From contig JAUXWO010000050.1 of the NCBI GenBank assembly GCA_030680175.1, positions 1 through 64,000 of the forward strand: a stretch of 64,000 bases of DNA, written 5' to 3'. The notes below the pieces were generated by a model that was not told where the DNA came from, made no database searches, and saw only the letters and a program-made list of their open reading frames with translations. This document shows positions 4,533 through 36,131 of the stretch, piece by piece (position 1 is the stretch's first letter; each line of letters starts with the position of its first letter). The translations under genes and the position numbers were made by a program. Source of the stretch: Vicinamibacterales bacterium. GTDB taxonomy: Bacteria > Acidobacteriota > Vicinamibacteria > Vicinamibacterales > UBA2999.

Positions 4533-4745
4533 GTGCACGGGGTGCACGGGGTGCACGGGGTGCCCAGGGTGCACGAGGTGCCCAGGGTGCACGGGGTGCC
4601 CAGGGTGCACGGGGTGCCCAGGGTGCACGGAGTGCCCAGGGTGCACGGAGTGCCCAGGGTGCACGGGGTGCCCAGGGTGCACGGGGTGCCCAGGGTGCAC
4701 GGAGTGCCCAGGGTGCACGGAGTGCCCAGGGTGCACGGAGTGCCC
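4530..4745. repeat. 9-bp tandem array (GGGGTGCCC/AGGGTGCAC alternating), about 24 units
   Basis: Direct reading: TAGGTGCAC GGGGTGCAC GGGGTGCAC GGGGTGCCC AGGGTGCAC ... The first unit overlaps the TAG stop. Followed by an 8-bp (GTGCCGAA-like) array to about 4785. Confidence 0.95.
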
Positions 4746-4832
4746 AGGTGCCGGGGTGCCGAAGTGCCGAAGTGCCGAAGTGCCGAAGGGCCCGGGTGCC
4801 TTGGGGGGCGGGGTCAGTGAAGGGGATAGTCG

Positions 4833-5165: not shown

Positions 5166-5241
5166 GCCGGCATAGCTCAGTTGGTAGAGCAGCTGATTCG
5201 TAATCAGCAGGTCGTCGGTTCGAGTCCGACTGCCGGCTCCA
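5166..5241 (+). tRNA. tRNA-Thr(CGT)
   Basis: Cloverleaf: GCCGGCA / GCTC-GAGC D-arm / GCTGA-TTCGTAA-TCAGC anticodon arm / GTCGG-TTCGAGT-CCGAC T-arm / TGCCGGC T CCA. Confidence 0.96.
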
Positions 5242-5531
5242 GAATTCCTGGACATCCCTTCCCCGCCAGCAGCGCGCACTCCGCGTGCATGCGCCACGCC
5301 GGCACTGCAGATTATTCACTCACCCCGTGGCCTCCGTGGCCCGAACCGTGACCAACCCCTGGTCAGCCTATCGCGCCGACGCCTGCCCACTGGCCCTGCC
5401 CCATCGCTTGCAGTAGGATGCGCCGAAAGGACTTAGGCCGTCCGCTCGAACCCCGAACCGTGACCAAGTCTTGCGAAGCCTCGCAAGGATCGGCCTGGAG
5501 GGGGTCCGCAGGGCCTGCAGTCTAATTACAG

Positions 5532-5538
5532 GTTAGGC
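5532..5538 (+). other. Integron core site GTTAGGC (5' boundary of first visible cassette; attI or remnant attC)
   Basis: ...attacagGTTAGGCcgacg... No clear R''/L'' partner upstream. Confidence 0.5.
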
Positions 5539-5611
5539 CGACGACACACATTCCACAGTCGGGCAGCCTTGAGCCGTCTCCCGGACATCAGATAAGGATA
5601 AGTGACCATCC

Positions 5612-6001
5612 ATGCTCGCCAATCTCGTCGCATTAGCTGTTGCGTCAGCAATCGCCCTTAGTGCTTCGCAAGCGTTCCCTGTCATCGGAGCCACCTACCA
5701 GCTGGACCGGGCCAAGTACCCAGGCCGCGTGGCAGTGTGCACGACCGAAGCTGCGATGAGCGCTTACGCAGAGGCAGAGGCAAGGCGCGATCAAGCCGCC
5801 ATGAAGCGGATGGTGATGAATGTCTCAACGATGGCCGACCTCAACGCAATGAAGAAGGCCGAAGCGTGCACGATGGTGAGCAGTTCGTCCCAGGCCAAGA
5901 TCATCGAGAAGGGTATCGAAGCCCACAAGGCCGAGTTCGCAGCGTTCGCGTTGACACCGATGTGGGGGCATTACTTGTACTTCGGCGGCCGGGTCAGGTA
6001 G
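5612..6001 (+). CDS. Putative secreted cassette-encoded hypothetical protein
   Basis: MLANLVALAVASAIALSASQAFPVIG signal-like N-terminus; the ORF lies between GTTAGGC (5532) and attC1. Confidence 0.65.
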   Translation: MLANLVALAVASAIALSASQAFPVIGATYQLDRAKYPGRVAVCTTEAAMSAYAEAEARRDQAAMKRMVMNVSTMADLNAMKKAEACTMVSSSSQAKIIEKGIEAHKAEFAAFALTPMWGHYLYFGGRVR

Positions 6002-6101
6002 CCCCGCGTGTGCGCACCGTCGCCGGTGGGAGGGTGTCGAGGCGGCGACGGCGCCGTATGCATCGCACTCCGCTGCACCCGCGTCGGCTCGCCGAAGAGC
6101 G

Positions 6102-6168
6102 GCCTAACAAGCGGTTGCAGCCGTCGGCGGCGATCATGGGCCGCCGCGGCTGAACCGCCACGTTAGGC
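6102..6168 (+). other. attC1 (integron cassette recombination site)
   Basis: GCCTAAC...gcggttGcagccg...cggctgaaccgc...GTTAGGC; arms pair with one extrahelical G. Confidence 0.9.
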
Positions 6169-6177
6169 AGACCACGC

Positions 6178-6843
6178 ATGCTGACCGTCTCAGAGCTACT
6201 CTTCGAGCGGTTCTGCCAAAGCCGCCACATTGTTCACAGGCAAGTGCCTGCCGGACCGAGGCAGACGCCAGACTATGAGCTTGATGTCGGTAGCGTGACG
6301 ATCGTGGTCGAAGTCAAACAGCTCGAGCCGAATAACGGAGATCGTGAATTGGCTCACGATGCAGTCGAAGGCGGTTCCGCATCGTGCTGGGTCGATATGG
6401 GCCGGGCACGCCAGAGCATTCTTGACGGCGTGAAGCAACTGCGCGCTCACGCCAAGGGTCGGCACCCGGCCCTGGTCGTTCTCTACGAGGTCGTGGACTT
6501 GCTCGACTATCTCGGAGCTGACAGCATCGCTCAGTGCATGTACGGACCTGAGCGAGTTCATGTCGCCGTGCCTCATGCGCCGGACGCTGAGCCATGGGTG
6601 CTCGGCGCAAGCTACGGCGGTGGCCGAGTTGTCACCGCGTCGCACAACACGACCCTCAGTGCGGTGGCTGTCCTGCGGCGCGCGGGTGATGCGGAAACGC
6701 TATCAGTGTTTCACAACGCTTACGCCGCGATTCCACTGAACCCCGATCAGTTTCAGCTGGATGGGGTGCGCCACTTCGTGTGGCAAGCCCGAGATGACCG
6801 TCATCTTCCGTACTGGGTCGAGGTGACATCACCGGCTGCCTAA
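6178..6843 (+). CDS. Cassette protein with PD-(D/E)XK nuclease-like motif
   Basis: ORF starts 10 bp after the attC1 core and ends in attC2. Motif TPDYELDVGSVTIVVEVKQ fits PD-x(n)-ExK. Confidence 0.65.
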   Translation: MLTVSELLFERFCQSRHIVHRQVPAGPRQTPDYELDVGSVTIVVEVKQLEPNNGDRELAHDAVEGGSASCWVDMGRARQSILDGVKQLRAHAKGRHPALVVLYEVVDLLDYLGADSIAQCMYGPERVHVAVPHAPDAEPWVLGASYGGGRVVTASHNTTLSAVAVLRRAGDAETLSVFHNAYAAIPLNPDQFQLDGVRHFVWQARDDRHLPYWVEVTSPAA

Positions 6844-6912
6844 CCAGCGGTTGCAGCCGGCGGCGCGCTGGTGCAGCCTGAGCGCGCCGCGGCTGAACCG
6901 CGGACGTTCGGC
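6838..6912 (+). other. attC2
   Basis: GCCTAAC cagcggttGcagccgg...gcggctgaaccgcgga GTTCGGC; same arm pairing as attC1. Confidence 0.85.
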
Positions 6913-6948
6913 CACGGAGGAAATGCAAGTGAATGGGGTGCCGTTGTC

Positions 6949-8295
6949 GTGAGAGGGCCGTTCTTCAAGTACTGGAATCGCGTTCGTTCCGGTTTCTGGT
7001 TTGTCCCGGCGGTCATGGCCGGCGTGGCCGTGGCGTTGGCCCTCGTGAGCGTCACCGTGGACGAGCCGTTAACGGAATGGTTGGCGCTCAACTTGGGCTG
7101 GACGTTCACCGGTGGTGCGGAAGGAGCGAGCGCCCTGCTGGGGATCGTCGCCGGATCGATGATTACCATCGCCGGGGTGGTGTTCTCGATGACGTTGGTC
7201 ACCCTCTCGCTGGCCTCGTCTCAGCTGGGACCCCGTTTGCTGCGCAGTTTCATGCGCGATTCCAGCACACAAGTAGTACTCGGCACGTTCATCGCCACCT
7301 TCCTGTACTGCCTGCTCGTCCTCCGCACGATTCGACGCGCGGAGGAGGTCGCTTTCGTCCCGCATCTGTCGGTCACGCTCGGCGTTCTACTCGCGATGGC
7401 GAGCGTGGCGGTGCTGATCTACTTCATCCATCACGTTTCCGTATCCATCCAGGCCAACGAGATCGCAGCGCGGATCGGCAAGGAACTGATCGAGAGGATC
7501 GACCATCTGTTCCCGGGACACATCGGACAGGGAGCGTCACGGATTCCGGCGGAGCCACCTGACGCGAGCTTCTTCGAGGCGTTCGACCAGGAGGCTCGGC
7601 CGGTCGGCGCGGACGGGGACGGCTACCTTCAGTTCGTCGACGCGGAGGCCTTGCTGGCGCTGGCGATGGAAGAGGATCTGGTGGTCCGACTGGAGCGAAG
7701 GCCTGGAGACTACGTCGTCGCCAGCTGTCCACTGGCGCTGGTCTGGCCAGGAAGCCGAGTGACCGACCGACTCACCGAGCAGGTCCAGTCCCTCTTGGTC
7801 CTGGGCCACCAGCGGACTTCTGACCAGGACATCGAGTTCGGGGTGAACCAGCTGGTGGAGATTGCGGTCCGGGCCCTGTCCCCTGGGCTGAATGACCCGT
7901 TCACGGCGATGACGTGTGTGGACCACTTGGGATCCGCTTTGTGTCGTTTGGCTACACGAGACATGCCATCGCCTTATCGCCATGACCGCCGGAATCAGCT
8001 TCGGGTGATTGCACGTGGTAATACGTTCCCGGAGGTCGTGGATGCGGCGTTCAACCAGATCCGGCAATCTTGCCGCTCCAGCGCCTCGGTGACGATCCGC
8101 CTGCTGGAAACGATCGCCGTGGTCGCGACCTTCGTGCATCAGCCACAGGACCACGCCACCCTCTTGCAGCACGCTGAAATGATCGCCCGAGGGGCAAGCG
8201 AGGGGCTGCCCGAAGAAAAGGACCGCCGGGCAGTGGAAGAGCGCCGCCAGGCGGTAAGCCGGTTATGCAGCGAACCGGCAGGCGCTGGCCGCTGA
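6949..8295 (+). CDS. DUF2254 domain-containing membrane protein
   Basis: ...SMITIAGVVFSMTLVTLSLASSQLGPRLLRSFMRDSSTQVVLGTFIATFLYCLLVL... DUF2254 hallmark. GTG start chosen downstream of attC2. Confidence 0.85.
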   Translation: MRGPFFKYWNRVRSGFWFVPAVMAGVAVALALVSVTVDEPLTEWLALNLGWTFTGGAEGASALLGIVAGSMITIAGVVFSMTLVTLSLASSQLGPRLLRSFMRDSSTQVVLGTFIATFLYCLLVLRTIRRAEEVAFVPHLSVTLGVLLAMASVAVLIYFIHHVSVSIQANEIAARIGKELIERIDHLFPGHIGQGASRIPAEPPDASFFEAFDQEARPVGADGDGYLQFVDAEALLALAMEEDLVVRLERRPGDYVVASCPLALVWPGSRVTDRLTEQVQSLLVLGHQRTSDQDIEFGVNQLVEIAVRALSPGLNDPFTAMTCVDHLGSALCRLATRDMPSPYRHDRRNQLRVIARGNTFPEVVDAAFNQIRQSCRSSASVTIRLLETIAVVATFVHQPQDHATLLQHAEMIARGASEGLPEEKDRRAVEERRQAVSRLCSEPAGAGR

Positions 8296-8379
8296 AACGC
8301 GCGTACGCCCGGGCAGTACACTCTGAGGCGAGGGGTTGGGATCTTGGGCCGGGCGCCCATGGCGGTCAGCAAAGAGACC

Positions 8380-8439
8380 GCCGAACAACAGCATGCAGCG
8401 GACGGCGCTGCGCGCCGCCGCTGATGCTGAGCGCTAGGC
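8380..8439 (+). other. attC3
   Basis: GCCGAAC aacagcatGcagcgg ... ccgctgatgctg agc GCTAGGC; R' core has a one-base deviation from GTTAGGC. Confidence 0.75.
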
Positions 8440-8464
8440 AGACAGGTTGGCGGAGCGCCGAGTG

Positions 8465-8989
8465 ATGAAACGAATCCGATTCAGCGCTGCGGTGAGTCTC
8501 GATGGCTACATCGCGGGCCCGAACGGCGAGGCCGATTGGATCGTGCCCGACCCGGAAAGGGACTTCCCCACACTGATCGCACAGTTCGATACGCTACTCG
8601 TTGGTCGACGGACGTTCGAGACGATGGTTCGCAGGAAGCGAACGACCATGCTTGGCATGCGCACCGTCGTCCTGTCGACCACGTTGCGGCAAGTCGACCA
8701 TCCGGAGGTGACAATCGTTAGCGAGGGAGTGGACGCTGCCGTGAGAAGGCTGCGCGCCAACTCGCAGAAGGACGTCTGGCTCTTCGGGGGCGGCGAGGTG
8801 TTCGGACGCCTCCTGGCGTGCGGCCTCGTAGACGGCGTAGAACTCGCCGTCCAACCGGTTCTTCTCGGCGGCGGGATTCCGCTTCTGCGCGAGACCCTGC
8901 ATCGACACCGGTTGCACCTCGCCGCGCATCGAGTGTCGCAGGTAGGAGTGGTCCATCTCGAATACGCGGCCCAGCACTCGGCTGCCTAA
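8465..8989 (+). CDS. Dihydrofolate reductase / RibD C-terminal family protein
   Basis: MKRIRFSAAVSLDGYIAGPNGEADWI...LLVGRRTFETM...WLFGGGEVFGRLL...VQPVLLGGGIPLL, typical of the DHFR-like RibD_C fold. Confidence 0.85.
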   Translation: MKRIRFSAAVSLDGYIAGPNGEADWIVPDPERDFPTLIAQFDTLLVGRRTFETMVRRKRTTMLGMRTVVLSTTLRQVDHPEVTIVSEGVDAAVRRLRANSQKDVWLFGGGEVFGRLLACGLVDGVELAVQPVLLGGGIPLLRETLHRHRLHLAAHRVSQVGVVHLEYAAQHSAA

Positions 8990-9010
8990 CCAGCGGTTGC
9001 AGCCGACGGC
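8984..9010 (+). other. attC4, left half (interrupted by IS)
   Basis: GCCTAACCAGCGGTTGCAGCCGACGGC, then IS left end. Confidence 0.85.
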
Positions 9011-9062
9011 TGATCTTCCCTCGATAAAGTAGACACTTCCCTCTAACGATCGGAGGTGTCCG

Positions 9063-9428
9063 ATGGCACGAGCAGGCCCGAAGAAGGTGCGCCGCTATAG
9101 CCTCGAGTTCAAGCTCAAGGCGGTGAAGCTGACGCAGCTCGCCGGCGTGCAGGTCCAGGACGTGGCGGAGGCCCTGGAGATCCATCCGTTCATGCTGTCG
9201 AAGTGGCGCAAGGAGGCCCGCGAGGGGACCTTGCGCGGCCGGGCCGAGCTGTCGGCGGCAGTGAAGACGCCAACGCCGCGCGAGGTGACCCGCTACCACG
9301 CCCTGAGGCGGGCGCACGCGCTGCTGCAGGAGGAGCATGCCCTCCTAAAAAAAGCCATCCGGTTCTGTTCCGCACGAAGGCCGACGTCTTCGCCTTCATC
9401 GAGCAAGAGCGGGCGACGTTCGGGGTGA
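9063..9428 (+). CDS. IS3-family transposase OrfA (HTH)
   Basis: MARAGPKKVRRYSLEFKLKAVKLTQLAGVQVQDVAEALEIHPFMLSKWRKEAREG; A7 slippery run at 9347-9353. Confidence 0.9.
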   Translation: MARAGPKKVRRYSLEFKLKAVKLTQLAGVQVQDVAEALEIHPFMLSKWRKEAREGTLRGRAELSAAVKTPTPREVTRYHALRRAHALLQEEHALLKKAIRFCSARRPTSSPSSSKSGRRSG

Positions 9429-10234
9429 CGCGGCTGTGTCGGTGCTACGGGGTCACGCGGGCCGGGTTCTACGCGTGGCGTCGCCGCCCCGAGAGCCGTC
9501 ACCAGGCGCAGGACCGGGCCCTCTCGACCGCAATCGCGGCGATCTTCGCGGCCAGTCGAGGCACGTATGGCAGCCCGCGTGTCCATCAGGCGCTGCGCCA
9601 CGCCGGGCACCGGGTGAGTCGGCGCCGTGTCGAGCGCCTGATGCGGTACGCCGGCCTCCGCGGACGCGTCGCGCGTCTGTATCGGCGCAAGGCGGGCACC
9701 GCACGCTGGTTCGGCCAGCATCCGAATCACGTGCGCTGGACGCGCGCCACGGGCCCGAATCAGATCTGGATCGGGGACCTGACGTATCTCCGCGTCGGGA
9801 CGCGGTGGTGGTACATGGCAACCGTGCTCGACCAGTACTCGCGGCGCGTGCTGGCGTGGCGCCTCGGGACGATTCGCGACGCGCGATTGACGGGGGCGGT
9901 GATCCGGGCGGCCCTGCGGCGGCGCCGCCCCGCCCTCGGGCTGGTCTTTCACAGCGACCGCGACAGTGAGTTCCTCGGCGCCGCCGTGCGCCATGGCCTG
10001 GCGGCCCACGGCGTGCGCCAGAGTATGACGCGAGGGGGCGCCCCAGGAGAGAACCCTCACATCGAGTCGTTCTTTCACTCCTGTAAGGCGGACGCCATCC
10101 ACGGACGGGACTTTCGCAGCATCGACGAGCTGAGGCGCACGCTCCGGTGGTACCTGCCGTTCTACAACCACCGGCGTCTGCACTCCGCGCTGGGGTATCA
10201 GTCTCCCGTTGACTATGAGCGCCGAGCCGCGTAG
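9354..10234 (+). CDS. IS3-family transposase OrfB (DDE integrase core), made by -1 frameshift from OrfA
   Basis: GTYGSPRVHQAL, IGDLTYLRV, FHSDRDSEF, ENPHIESFFHSCK, FYNHRRLHSALGYQSPVDYE. Frame is -1 relative to OrfA and open since 9203. Confidence 0.93.
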
Positions 10235-10267
10235 AACACTCGTGTCTACAGAAGCGAGGGAAGATCC

Positions 10268-10318
10268 CGGCGGCCGGTGCGATCCTGAGCCGCCGCGGCT
10301 GAACCGCAGTCGTTAGCC
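10268..10318 (+). other. attC4, right half
   Basis: cggcggccggtgcgatcctgagccgccgcggctgaaccgcagtcGTTAGCC, complementary to the left half. Confidence 0.85.
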
Positions 10319-10366
10319 GGACGAGACCAAGGTGCGACCCCGATTTAAGTTGCCGGCACAGGAGGT

Positions 10367-11053
10367 ATGGTGTTTGCCATCAATCATGCTGCGACCGCTC
10401 TCTTCATCCGTCGACGGTACCCAGATGTTGCGTTCATTCCGATCCTGCTCTCCGTTCAAGTCATGGAGTTGCTGTGGGTCACACTGAATTACCTGGGCCT
10501 CGAACGAACCACGACGGAGCCTGTGGTGCGCTACGTCGGCGACATCCACCTCGAGTTCATGCCGTACTCGCACTCCGTCACCACCATGCTCGCTGTTGCA
10601 GGATTGTCATGGGCCGCAGGCGCGGCGTTCCGAAGACCGCAGCTGGGGGCCGCGTTCGGCATCGGTGTGCTGTCGCATCTTCTACTGGATCTGGCTACTC
10701 ACAACGGAGACATTGCTCTGGCTCCATTCACTGGGAGTGAGGGGTACGGGACGTATCTCTATGGCAGGCTGCCAGCTCTCGCCTTCGTCGTCGAGCTCGG
10801 CTTTGGCGTCCTCTGCTGGTGGGTGTACCGTGGGGGCCGGGCGCTGTTGGCCGTCATCGTAGGCTTTAACCTGGCCAACCTGTCTCTGTTCTTCCCAGCA
10901 GTGCCGGGCCTTGAAGGAATGCTGGCGGGCCGGTCACAGCTACTTGTGACCGTGATTCTCGTTCAAATTGGCGTCACGCTTTGGGCCATTTGGTGGGCTG
11001 CGAACCACCGCGGCCCCCGAGAATCGCCGCCTACCGCGACCCACGCCGGCTAA
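10367..11053 (+). CDS. Cassette-encoded integral membrane protein, YdjM/metal-dependent-hydrolase-like
   Basis: INHAATALF..., PYSHSVTT, GVLSHLLLDLATHNGD plus multiple TMs; aggaggt RBS just upstream. Confidence 0.65.
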   Translation: MVFAINHAATALFIRRRYPDVAFIPILLSVQVMELLWVTLNYLGLERTTTEPVVRYVGDIHLEFMPYSHSVTTMLAVAGLSWAAGAAFRRPQLGAAFGIGVLSHLLLDLATHNGDIALAPFTGSEGYGTYLYGRLPALAFVVELGFGVLCWWVYRGGRALLAVIVGFNLANLSLFFPAVPGLEGMLAGRSQLLVTVILVQIGVTLWAIWWAANHRGPRESPPTATHAG

Positions 11054-11135
11054 CAATCGCGTGAAGCCGCGGGCGCCCGGCAGTTCGTGGCAGAATCCCG
11101 GCAGGCAGCCGCCGCGGCTCACGCGCCGGTTAGAC
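11048..11135 (+). other. attC5
   Basis: GGCTAAC aatcgcgtgAagccgcgg ... ccgcggctcacgcgccg GTTAGAC; extrahelical A. Confidence 0.85.
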
Positions 11136-11182
11136 CGCACGAATGCCATCGGTGCGGTATGGTATCGTCATATACATCGACC

Positions 11183-11524
11183 ATGGGCGAGCTCGACGAT
11201 CTGGTGGCCGGGCTCGAGGGCTTCGAGTGGGACGACGGCAACTCGGCCAAGAACTGGCTGCGCCACGAAGTCCAGCAGGCCGAGGCCGAGCAGGCGCTGC
11301 TCAACACCCCGCTCGTCGTGGCTGTCACCCTCAAGCACGGGGCGGGCGAACCGCGCTACGTGGCCCTGGGGCAGACAGATACGGGGCGTCTCTTGACGGT
11401 GGTCTTCACCGTCCGCGGCACCAAGGTCCGTGTCATCTCGGCACGCGCGATGAGCAAACCGGAGCGGAAGGTTTATGGCGAAGTCCAAGCGAACTCCGAA
11501 GGCCGTCCCGGCGTTCAAGACTGA
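11183..11524 (+). CDS. brnT: BrnT family toxin
   Basis: GLEGFEWDDGNSAKNWLRHEVQQAEAEQALLNTPLVV...GRLLTVVFTVRGTKVRVISARAMSKPERKVYGE, a BrnT signature. Confidence 0.9.
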   Translation: MGELDDLVAGLEGFEWDDGNSAKNWLRHEVQQAEAEQALLNTPLVVAVTLKHGAGEPRYVALGQTDTGRLLTVVFTVRGTKVRVISARAMSKPERKVYGEVQANSEGRPGVQD

Positions 11525-11858
11525 GGCGGAAGAGCGGCGGTTCTGGGAAACGCACGACACCACGGCCTACGTCGACTGGTCGGCGGCGAAGCCCGCGCGC
11601 TTTCCCAATCTGAAGCCATCGACGGAGACGATCTCCCTTCGGCTCCCGGCCGGCCTGCTGGCCGACTTGAAGGCACTCGCGAACAAGCAGGATGTGCCCT
11701 ATCAGTCGTTGCTCAAAGTGTTCCTCGCCGACCGGGTGGCTCGAGAGTGGCGCGCGTCGCGCGTCTCCGGCGCGCGGTCGAACAAAGCGGTGCAGCCGAC
11801 GAGCCGCGCTCGGAAGGGTGCCAAGTCGCCAAGGCGTACCCGCGCGGCTCGCGGCTGA
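11475..11858 (+). CDS. brnA: BrnA family antitoxin
   Basis: PAFKTEAEERRFWETHDTTAYVDWSAAKPARFPNLKPSTETISLRLPAGLLADLKALANKQDVPYQSLLKVFLADRV; overlaps the 3' end of brnT and reads into attC6. Confidence 0.9.
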   Translation: MAKSKRTPKAVPAFKTEAEERRFWETHDTTAYVDWSAAKPARFPNLKPSTETISLRLPAGLLADLKALANKQDVPYQSLLKVFLADRVAREWRASRVSGARSNKAVQPTSRARKGAKSPRRTRAARG

Positions 11859-11874
11859 CCGCTGGTCGTTGGGC
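11777..11874 (+). other. attC6
   Basis: GTCGAAC aaagcggtGcagccgacgagccgcg ... cgcggctcgcggctgaccgct ggtc GTTGGGC; arms pair with extrahelical G. Confidence 0.8.
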
Positions 11875-11989
11875 GGACACGAATCGACGAACACGACGAA
11901 TACGAACGGACGCCGCGGCACAGTCACTCGCCCGGCGCGCCCGCGTCGCGAGCGGTTGTGCTTCTGTGTCCGGGTGTCAGCCGGGACGA

Positions 11990-12410
11990 CCGATGGGGGC
12001 AGAGAACGTCGGATATTAGACCGGTCTTCTTCGCGATGCGAGCGAGCATGCGAGGCCCAATCTCCTCGTCATCGTGAAAGGCAAAGAACGAAGTCTGGCC
12101 AGCCATCGCGACTGAGCGTCCGATGCGAGCCGGACACCCGTGTGACCTGCCAGTCAATCCGGATCACGGACTTCGGTGTCGTCTGCGTCTTCTGGCTGAA
12201 CACATCCGGGACCACGGCGGCATCATCGGCCACGTGGTGCACGATCCGCCACGACTGGTCGCGGTCGTTGATGCGAAGGTCGTGACACTGCTTGCCGATG
12301 TCCGGGATCGGTCGCGACTGCGGCAGGGCAAGCGTCGCTCCTTGTTGCAGCCGGCGGAGCAGGAACCCCGCTTCGATGCGCGCCTCGGGGCTGAGCGGAG
12401 GCGACTTCAC
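11990..12410 (-). pseudogene. Chimeric/decayed toxin: HigB-like (Gp49) N-terminus joined to a frameshifted HicA-like segment
   Basis: VKSPPLSPEARIEAGFLLRRLQ...CHDLRINDRDQSWRIVHHV...QKTQTTPKSVI then RIDWQVTRVSGSHRTLSRDGWPDF; FAFHDDEEIGPRMLARIAKKTGL continues in another frame after a one-base T excess. Confidence 0.6.
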
Positions 12411-12505
12411 CTCTCATTTGCGCCAGACAAGGGGCGTGTCAGGAGGCCGCGGCACTGCCAGGCCATGTCGAATCCGACAAACCGTCGCGAAAAAGGCAGC
12501 TCGCA

Positions 12506-12587
12506 GCCTCACCACCGGGTGGAGCCGACGGCTCCTGTGGCAGAATCCCGGCAGGCGGACGCCGCGGCTCACCCGGAGGCGCCAGGC
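12506..12587 (+). other. attC7 (degenerate core sites)
   Basis: GCCTCAC caccgggtgGagccg...cggctcacccgg aggc GCCAGGC; L arms intact with extrahelical G but core AAC/GTT decayed. Confidence 0.55.
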
Positions 12588-35285: not shown

Positions 35286-36131
35286 ATGCCGCGCTTCGCG
35301 CCTGACCTCGTCCAGCGTTTCTACGACCGCAGCACCCCCGGCTTCGCGCGCTTCGGACAGGGCGGCCGGACGGGCGCCATTCGCCGGGCCGTCTGGGGAC
35401 CGGGCGTGACCGACCGCGTGCAGGCGTTTCACTTCGTCGACCATGAGATCGCGGAACACGCCCGCGCGCTCGCGACCTCCGCCGCGCCGCTGCACCTCGT
35501 GGATCTCGGCTGCGGCGTCGGCGGCAGCCTCTGCTATCTGGCCGCGCGACTGCCGATGCGCGGCACCGGCATCACGCTGAGCCCCGTCCAGGCCGCCCAC
35601 GCCCGGGCCCGCATCCGCGCCGCGGGGCTCGCCGATCGTGTGACGTGCACGGTCGGCGACTACTGCGACCTGCCGTCCTCAATCGGCCAGGCCGACCTGG
35701 CCTATGCGATCGAGTCGTTCGTTCACGGCCCGGATCCGGTGCGCTTCTTCACCCAGTGCCGCGACCTCGTGCGGCCGGGCGGGCGTCTGATCCTTTGCGA
35801 CGACTTCCGCGGCGAGACATCCGATCCCGCGGCCGCCCGCGCGCTCGACCGGTTCCGTAGCGGCTGGCACGTGAACACGCTGCTCAACCTCGACGAAGTG
35901 CAGGCCATCGCCCGCCTGGCCGGATTCACGCTGCACACGGCCATGCCGCTGACGCCGATGCTGGAGCTCGGCCGTCCGCGCGACCAGCTCATCAAGACGT
36001 TCCTGGCCCTCTTCGGCTGGCTGCCGCTGCACCGGACACGGCTCGGCCACCTCGTCGGTGGAGATGCACTGCAGACCTGCCTGCGACGGGGATGGCTCCA
36101 TCACGATCTGCTGGTGTTCGCCCGGGACTGA
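35286..36131 (+). CDS. SAM-dependent methyltransferase (cyclopropane/geranyl-diphosphate-MT-like fold)
   Basis: LHLVDLGCGVGGSLCYLAARLPMRGTGITLSPVQAAHARARIRAAGL. Confidence 0.88.
   Translation: MPRFAPDLVQRFYDRSTPGFARFGQGGRTGAIRRAVWGPGVTDRVQAFHFVDHEIAEHARALATSAAPLHLVDLGCGVGGSLCYLAARLPMRGTGITLSPVQAAHARARIRAAGLADRVTCTVGDYCDLPSSIGQADLAYAIESFVHGPDPVRFFTQCRDLVRPGGRLILCDDFRGETSDPAAARALDRFRSGWHVNTLLNLDEVQAIARLAGFTLHTAMPLTPMLELGRPRDQLIKTFLALFGWLPLHRTRLGHLVGGDALQTCLRRGWLHHDLLVFARD

Follow-up and report, generated by a model that had tools for sequence, protein, structure and literature searches.

An integrase-less cassette array headed by a predicted attI site, one of three such sites in an Acidobacteriota genome

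Clusters of attC sites without an integron integrase are known as CALINs (PMC8618304; PMC12444791). They are common. Off-target insertion of cassettes, loss of intI and rearrangement are debated as their origin (PMC8618304). Their mobilisation by IntI acting in trans is considered possible (PMC12444791). The attI site, into which cassettes are inserted in complete integrons, is poorly described outside class 1 and is not detected there by IntegronFinder (PMC9024848).

The array described here lies in a window (the whole stretch of DNA analysed, 64,000 bp) that comprises bases 1-64000 of contig C62 (193,686 bp). The genome of 4.98 Mb is assembled in 143 contigs and is 100% complete, with 2.12% contamination. 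An initial interpretation drawn from the letters of the window (the sequence-only reading) had proposed an integrase-less cassette array beside tRNA-Thr. This is supported by the tRNA gene predicted with ARAGORN, by attC sites scored with a covariance model, and by the lack of an intI match in the window.

attC sites and cassettes of the window

Rfam at the gathering threshold detected only the tRNA in the window, and we therefore built our own covariance models. Model R2 was derived from 15 attC sites, all located on contigs outside the window, and was run without filters. Its alignment was model-guided; MAFFT placed the R' boxes wrongly in short-loop attC sites. Six contiguous plus-strand sites scored 46-70 bits in the window, and the same six were recovered by the first model, R1. 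The best unrelated R2 match in the 64 kb had 24 bits (35477-35527, minus strand). The sequence-only reading had placed attC sites at all six positions and would have given them up if a covariance model scored none; both models scored all of them. Together with a further site split by an insertion sequence, they lie within 6.5 kb, where the CALIN definition asks for at least two clustered sites:

6102-6168, plus strand: attC1, GCCTAAC...GTTAGGC, R2 67.1 bits
6838-6912, plus strand: attC2, GCCTAAC...GTTCGGC, R2 69.7 bits
8380-8439, plus strand: attC3, GCCGAAC...GCTAGGC, R2 46.2 bits
8984-9010, plus strand: attC4, 5' half; joined with the 3' half it gives a canonical 74-nt attC
10268-10318, plus strand: attC4, 3' half, with GTTAGCC at 10312-10318
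11048-11135, plus strand: attC5, GGCTAAC...GTTAGAC, R2 48.1 bits
11777-11874, plus strand: attC6, GTCGAAC...GTTGGGC, R2 51.6 bits
12506-12587, plus strand: attC7, folded arms kept, both core boxes lost (CCTCACC, no GTT), R2 57.4 bits

A simple rule, which asks for core boxes, two paired arms, one extrahelical base and at least 12 arm pairs, found five sites within 5.8 kb, against 0.013 expected per 64 kb of first-order Markov sequence. Covariation was assessed in the 15 attC sites from outside the window. Double-change cells numbered 27 (8.9 in shuffles), both partners were altered in 10 of 23 pairs, and 92% of cells were paired, compared with 29-44% once the partners were slid.

Inverted core boxes of the type RYYYAAC/GTTRRRY occur in attC1-6 with no more than one deviation per box, much as first read; attC7 does not match. 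This last site had been called degenerate, which is right for its two lost core boxes but not for its arms, which fold well. The folded arms of the attC sites contain one extrahelical base in the 5' arm, mostly a G on the top strand (i.e. a C on the folded bottom strand), and the proposed pairing of the arms around a single such base is borne out by the folds and by covariation. In attC sites of class 1 and Vibrio integrons, the extrahelical G is on the bottom strand. Since the base in the window sites is mostly a top-strand G, their compatibility with IntI1 is uncertain.

The array consists of seven cassettes, the last one a remnant, with a cassette GC content of 62-67% versus 70%:

5533-6162, plus strand: cassette 1, ORF 5612-6001 of 129 aa with a signal-peptide-like start (exported-looking), no known family
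6163-6906, plus strand: cassette 2, ORF 6178-6843 of 221 aa with a PD-(D/E)XK-like motif (D32...E45-x-K47)
6907-8433, plus strand: cassette 3, ORF to 8295, DUF2254 membrane protein (PF10011, 447 bits)
8434-10312, plus strand: cassette 4, RibD_C/dihydrofolate-reductase-like protein at 8465-8989 (PF01872, 76 bits) plus the insertion sequence
9011-10267, plus strand: IS3-like insertion sequence of 1257 bp, orfA 9063-9428, orfB to 10234
10313-11129, plus strand: cassette 5, YdjM-like membrane protein at 10367-11053 (PF04307, 32 bits)
11130-11868, plus strand: cassette 6, BrnT/BrnA toxin-antitoxin pair at 11183-11524 and 11475-11858 (PF04365, PF12441)
11869-12581, no strand assigned: cassette 7 remnant, a hicA cassette fused by deletion to a Gp49/RelE-type toxin cassette, with a chimeric minus-strand ORF at 12069-12410

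A homologue of the cassette 2 gene in a member of another family of the same order (G091) is a cassette gene there too, its ORF being followed by an attC 54 bp on. The AlphaFold model of the cassette 2 product from a single sequence had a pLDDT of 34 and was unusable. The IS3-like element encodes HTH_Tnp_1 and rve domains, contains an A7 slippery run, ends in 25-nt terminal inverted repeats and is flanked by a CGGC target duplication (9007-9010/10268-10271). It cuts an otherwise normal attC4, which had been listed as a split site. The earlier statement that each attC lies at the 3' end of an ORF or ORF block does not apply to attC7, whose ORF is on the opposite strand.

attI copies and integrase genes of the genome

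A whole-genome search for the integron integrase (TIGR02249) gave no match in C62:1-64000, and no recombinase gene was found in the window, in agreement with the sequence-only reading. That reading had also pointed to the rest of the genome as a place for intI and for further attC clusters, and both are present there. An intact integron integrase gene is located on contig C36 (2452-3453; 446 bits with TIGR02249 versus a cut-off of 265). Its product can be aligned over its length with VchIntIA (2a3v) and retains the IntI-specific insertion as well as the catalytic R, K, HxxR, H and Y residues. Two attC sites occur on the opposite strand beyond the 5' end of this gene, past an attI. C36 carries a complete divergent integron with an array running off the contig. 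Searches of the genome's contigs also revealed attC sites on C23 (about 11), C61 (two), C14 (two) and C2 (one). The C23 array runs off the start of its contig and is perhaps the rest of the C36 array. In addition, a broken intI-like relic, a frameshifted and internally deleted pseudogene, is present at C62:192411-192850 (about 18.7-19.2 kb of locus L010), 180 kb from the array.

The head of the window array has the following features:

5166-5241, plus strand: tRNA-Thr (CGT), found with ARAGORN and Rfam
5259-5339, plus strand: probably what remains of a decayed intI-attI leader, collinear with and weakly similar to C36 2400-2316
5340-5538, plus strand: attI block, 199 bp paralogous to the intI-adjacent copy on C36, core GTTAGGC at 5532-5538

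The attI block is 88% identical to the region between intI and the cassettes on C36 and 89% identical to a third copy on C61, which likewise lacks intI and heads an array. All three copies are 199 bp long (87-89% identity), and their homology ends at the G^TTAGGC crossover, with unrelated cassettes beyond; such a pattern is as expected of recombination at a presumed attI. We conclude from the homology that 5340-5538 represents the attI of the window array. An attI at the array head, as in a complete integron, is thus recognised in the window by homology alone, and the intI that would adjoin it in a complete integron is absent; among the three copies, only that on C36 adjoins an intact intI. 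The array start had originally been set at 5532, which is the correct boundary, but its identity as the attI core had been missed.

The attI block had no real match in 161 other genomes of the order or among viral contigs. No match to a sigma-70 consensus Pc was found in the three attI copies by a search that covered sigma-70-type promoters. Four relatives that carry multiple arrays (G001, G025, G030, and G034) showed no attI copy without intI. The gene recA is present once in the genome, on C61, and this contig therefore belongs to the genome. Because an attI homologue heads the window array and an intact IntI is encoded elsewhere, the locus is one of three attI platforms and not a free-standing attC cluster. 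The original label, CALIN-like, is correct by definition but incomplete, as it leaves out the attI at the head, the intact IntI on C36 and the other two platforms.

The hicA and toxin/antitoxin cassettes are common to the window and C61 arrays; on C61 they are separate cassettes and their order is reversed. The occurrence of the same two cassettes in opposite order in both intI-less arrays indicates that cassettes were shuffled in the past, and we regard it as good evidence for exchange between these arrays. The C61 array also contains a fragment (L098, 10318-10551) with 92% identity to the insertion sequence that interrupts attC4. A repeated segment was seen within three arrays (L009, 1-141; L098, 10664-10804; L123, about 8.45-8.7 kb). 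It is 95% identical between C36 and C61, while the C23 stretch is similar by eye only. This repeat is probably one reason for assembly breaks at these places. Short tandem repeat strings, with readings of the GVHGVPR / GHPVHPGHP type, occur at gene ends both in the window (4533-4830) and on L009 (about 6760-7010).

Origin and possible mobility of the array

The explanation we favour, with a probability of roughly 0.7, is that the window array derives from an integron platform that lost its intI, kept its attI and seven cassettes, and may still be served in trans by the IntI encoded on C36. The three platforms would go back to a single ancestral platform that was duplicated or relocated, and in the window copy intI would have been deleted between tRNA-Thr and the attI leader. 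The C36 IntI would excise cassettes via attC x attC recombination, and all three attI copies could receive them. The window array would then form part of a distributed cassette pool. Such activity of the C36 IntI at the window array is inferred from the retained sites and the intact enzyme. The cassette GC content, the cassette 2 homologue in G091 and the lack of attC at the tRNA-Thr loci of relatives also count in favour of this explanation.

The similarity between the window and C36 extends for an extra 82 bp leftward of the attI block. This extension is weak but keeps the register of the block; the C61 copy has none. The C36 stretch involved (2400-2316) stops about 50 bp short of the intI start codon. 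The anchored alignment was reached in 1 of 300 shuffles and the local alignment in 33 of 1000. This similarity supports the view that intI was deleted from between the tRNA-Thr gene and the leader.

The array may alternatively be an inert relic, its cassettes fixed and immobile for lack of a local integrase and through damage to several attC sites; this is possible, though clearly less probable. The insertion sequence in attC4, the lost core boxes of attC7 and the deletion fusion of cassette 7 fit such a state. Against it, attC1-3, attC5, attC6 and the attI retain an intact form, and the genome encodes an intact IntI. Under the favoured explanation of an array served in trans, the damage to attC4 and attC7 suggests slow turnover at the distal end at present.

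Another view concerns the origin only and is compatible with service in trans by IntI. It holds that the attI block and its cassettes were mobile as a discrete unit and inserted beside tRNA genes. The insertion would have been the work of IntI, with the RYYYAAC-like left edge (GCCGAAC) as its site, or of another tyrosine recombinase with tRNA 3' ends as targets. The attI block starts 98 bp past the 3' end of tRNA-Thr and the C61 copy 145 bp past tRNA-Phe, so that both intI-less copies, two of the three in the genome, are located within 150 bp downstream of a tRNA; with 44 tRNA genes the chance of this is about 5e-6, for a pattern noticed post hoc. The left edge of the block is abrupt in C61. 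A sharp left edge as proof of a mobile unit is nevertheless weakened by the window copy, which seems to reach leftward into the intI leader. In relatives, about 20 further array loci are without a tRNA, and so are 15 loci with intI. This contrast adds to the case for a mobile unit, and it led us to reject tRNA adjacency as a general rule; in this genome the association of attI with tRNA is real, but it does not hold generally. No convincing attC was detected at the same tRNA loci in relatives (29 tRNA-Thr(CGT) and 25 tRNA-Phe genes) within about 1.5 kb, or less where contigs end; one 19-bit match occurred in L206. No duplicated 3' end of tRNA-Thr was found in the window or of tRNA-Phe on C61, the far part of C62 being only sampled. 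A duplicated tRNA 3' fragment and an integrase of its own mark a tRNA-targeted genomic island; the former was not found in the sequence searched, and no integron-integrase-like or other recombinase gene was found in the window. We consider this origin unlikely. The combined proposition that one IntI serves three separate attI platforms and that attI and cassettes relocate as a unit beside tRNA genes is equally doubtful; under it, a single genome would run a distributed, multi-locus cassette system in place of one integron. Fragments of 47-49 bp from the 3' part of tRNA-Phe, as integrative elements leave, were observed in a relative (G030 C142:77-123 and C61:592-640), and this family may have an integration hot spot at tRNA-Phe.

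A classical CALIN, in which IntI in trans placed cassettes at a chance attG-like site beside tRNA-Thr without an attI of its own, is very improbable. The window does lack intI, and off-target insertion is among the proposed origins of CALINs (PMC8618304; for attG, doi 10.1038/s41564-023-01548-y as cited in PMC12901181), but at the head of the array stands a 199-bp paralogue of the attI that adjoins intI, and its homology ends at the crossover. Least probable of all is an artefact of assembly or binning (one complete integron broken up among contigs, or the admixture of contigs from a second population): the fragmentation and contamination given above, the ends of C36 and C23 inside arrays and the false CALINs that split contigs can produce (PMC9024848) are outweighed by the internal position of the window array with uvrA upstream as in relatives, by the single recA on C61 and by the similar composition of C36 and C61. 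The neighbourhood of uvrA and tRNA-Thr is kept in several relatives according to protein searches, which were used in place of a tblastx comparison that yielded noise for this GC-rich window.

The genome offers a case in which service of several docking sites by one IntI can be tested. An integrase-less array with a paralogue of its genome's own attI provides direct evidence, at the sequence level, for an origin of CALINs by loss or duplication, and screening of CALIN heads for copies of the host attI could, this suggests, reclassify part of the CALINs.

Integrons in related genomes and comparison with described systems

Among 59 related genomes, attC sites were present in 46 and intI matches in 33. 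Integrons are common in this order; they are widespread and not exceptional in at least this order of Acidobacteriota, and the novelty therefore lies in the multi-attI layout. The initial statement that cassette integrons are little described in the phylum is only partly true in view of these numbers, of the existing Acidobacteria attC models (PMC8352920) and of the listing of Acidobacteriota among integron-bearing phyla (PMC8618304). Two layouts occur within the order, as seen in a comparison of L009, L014, L161-L163, L165, and L166. The intI gene is divergent from the cassettes in this genome (C36, L009), G034, G029, and G025 C79, and has the same direction as the cassettes in G012, G001, G021, G003, G010, and G049. 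G030 (C133 and C66; L235 and L236) has intI twice, each copy complete and with its leader, at 83% identity across 1331 bp. Duplication of integron platforms does occur in this family.

Like a CALIN, the window array has several attC-bounded cassettes and no intI nearby; it differs in retaining an attI paralogous to that beside the genome's intact intI. In the searchable literature we found no CALIN reported to have a paralogue of its own genome's attI at the head. With sedentary chromosomal integrons, such as that on C36 (two cassettes, possibly continued on C23), the window array shares similar attC arms, an attI at the head, and cassettes that mostly encode unknown, membrane or toxin-antitoxin proteins. 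It differs in the absence of an adjacent intI and in the presence of several attI platforms per genome. The Xanthomonas CALINs outside ilvD are alike in that the genome has intI at a single locus and arrays without integrase elsewhere, but the available text of PMC12444791 mentions no attI for them, whereas two of the three attI loci described here adjoin tRNA genes. Finally, attI-type cassettes of mobile integrons (PMC12901181) also carry attI away from intI, where it can still recombine. In those cassettes an attI variant replaces attC inside an array, whereas here the attI copies head separate chromosomal arrays.
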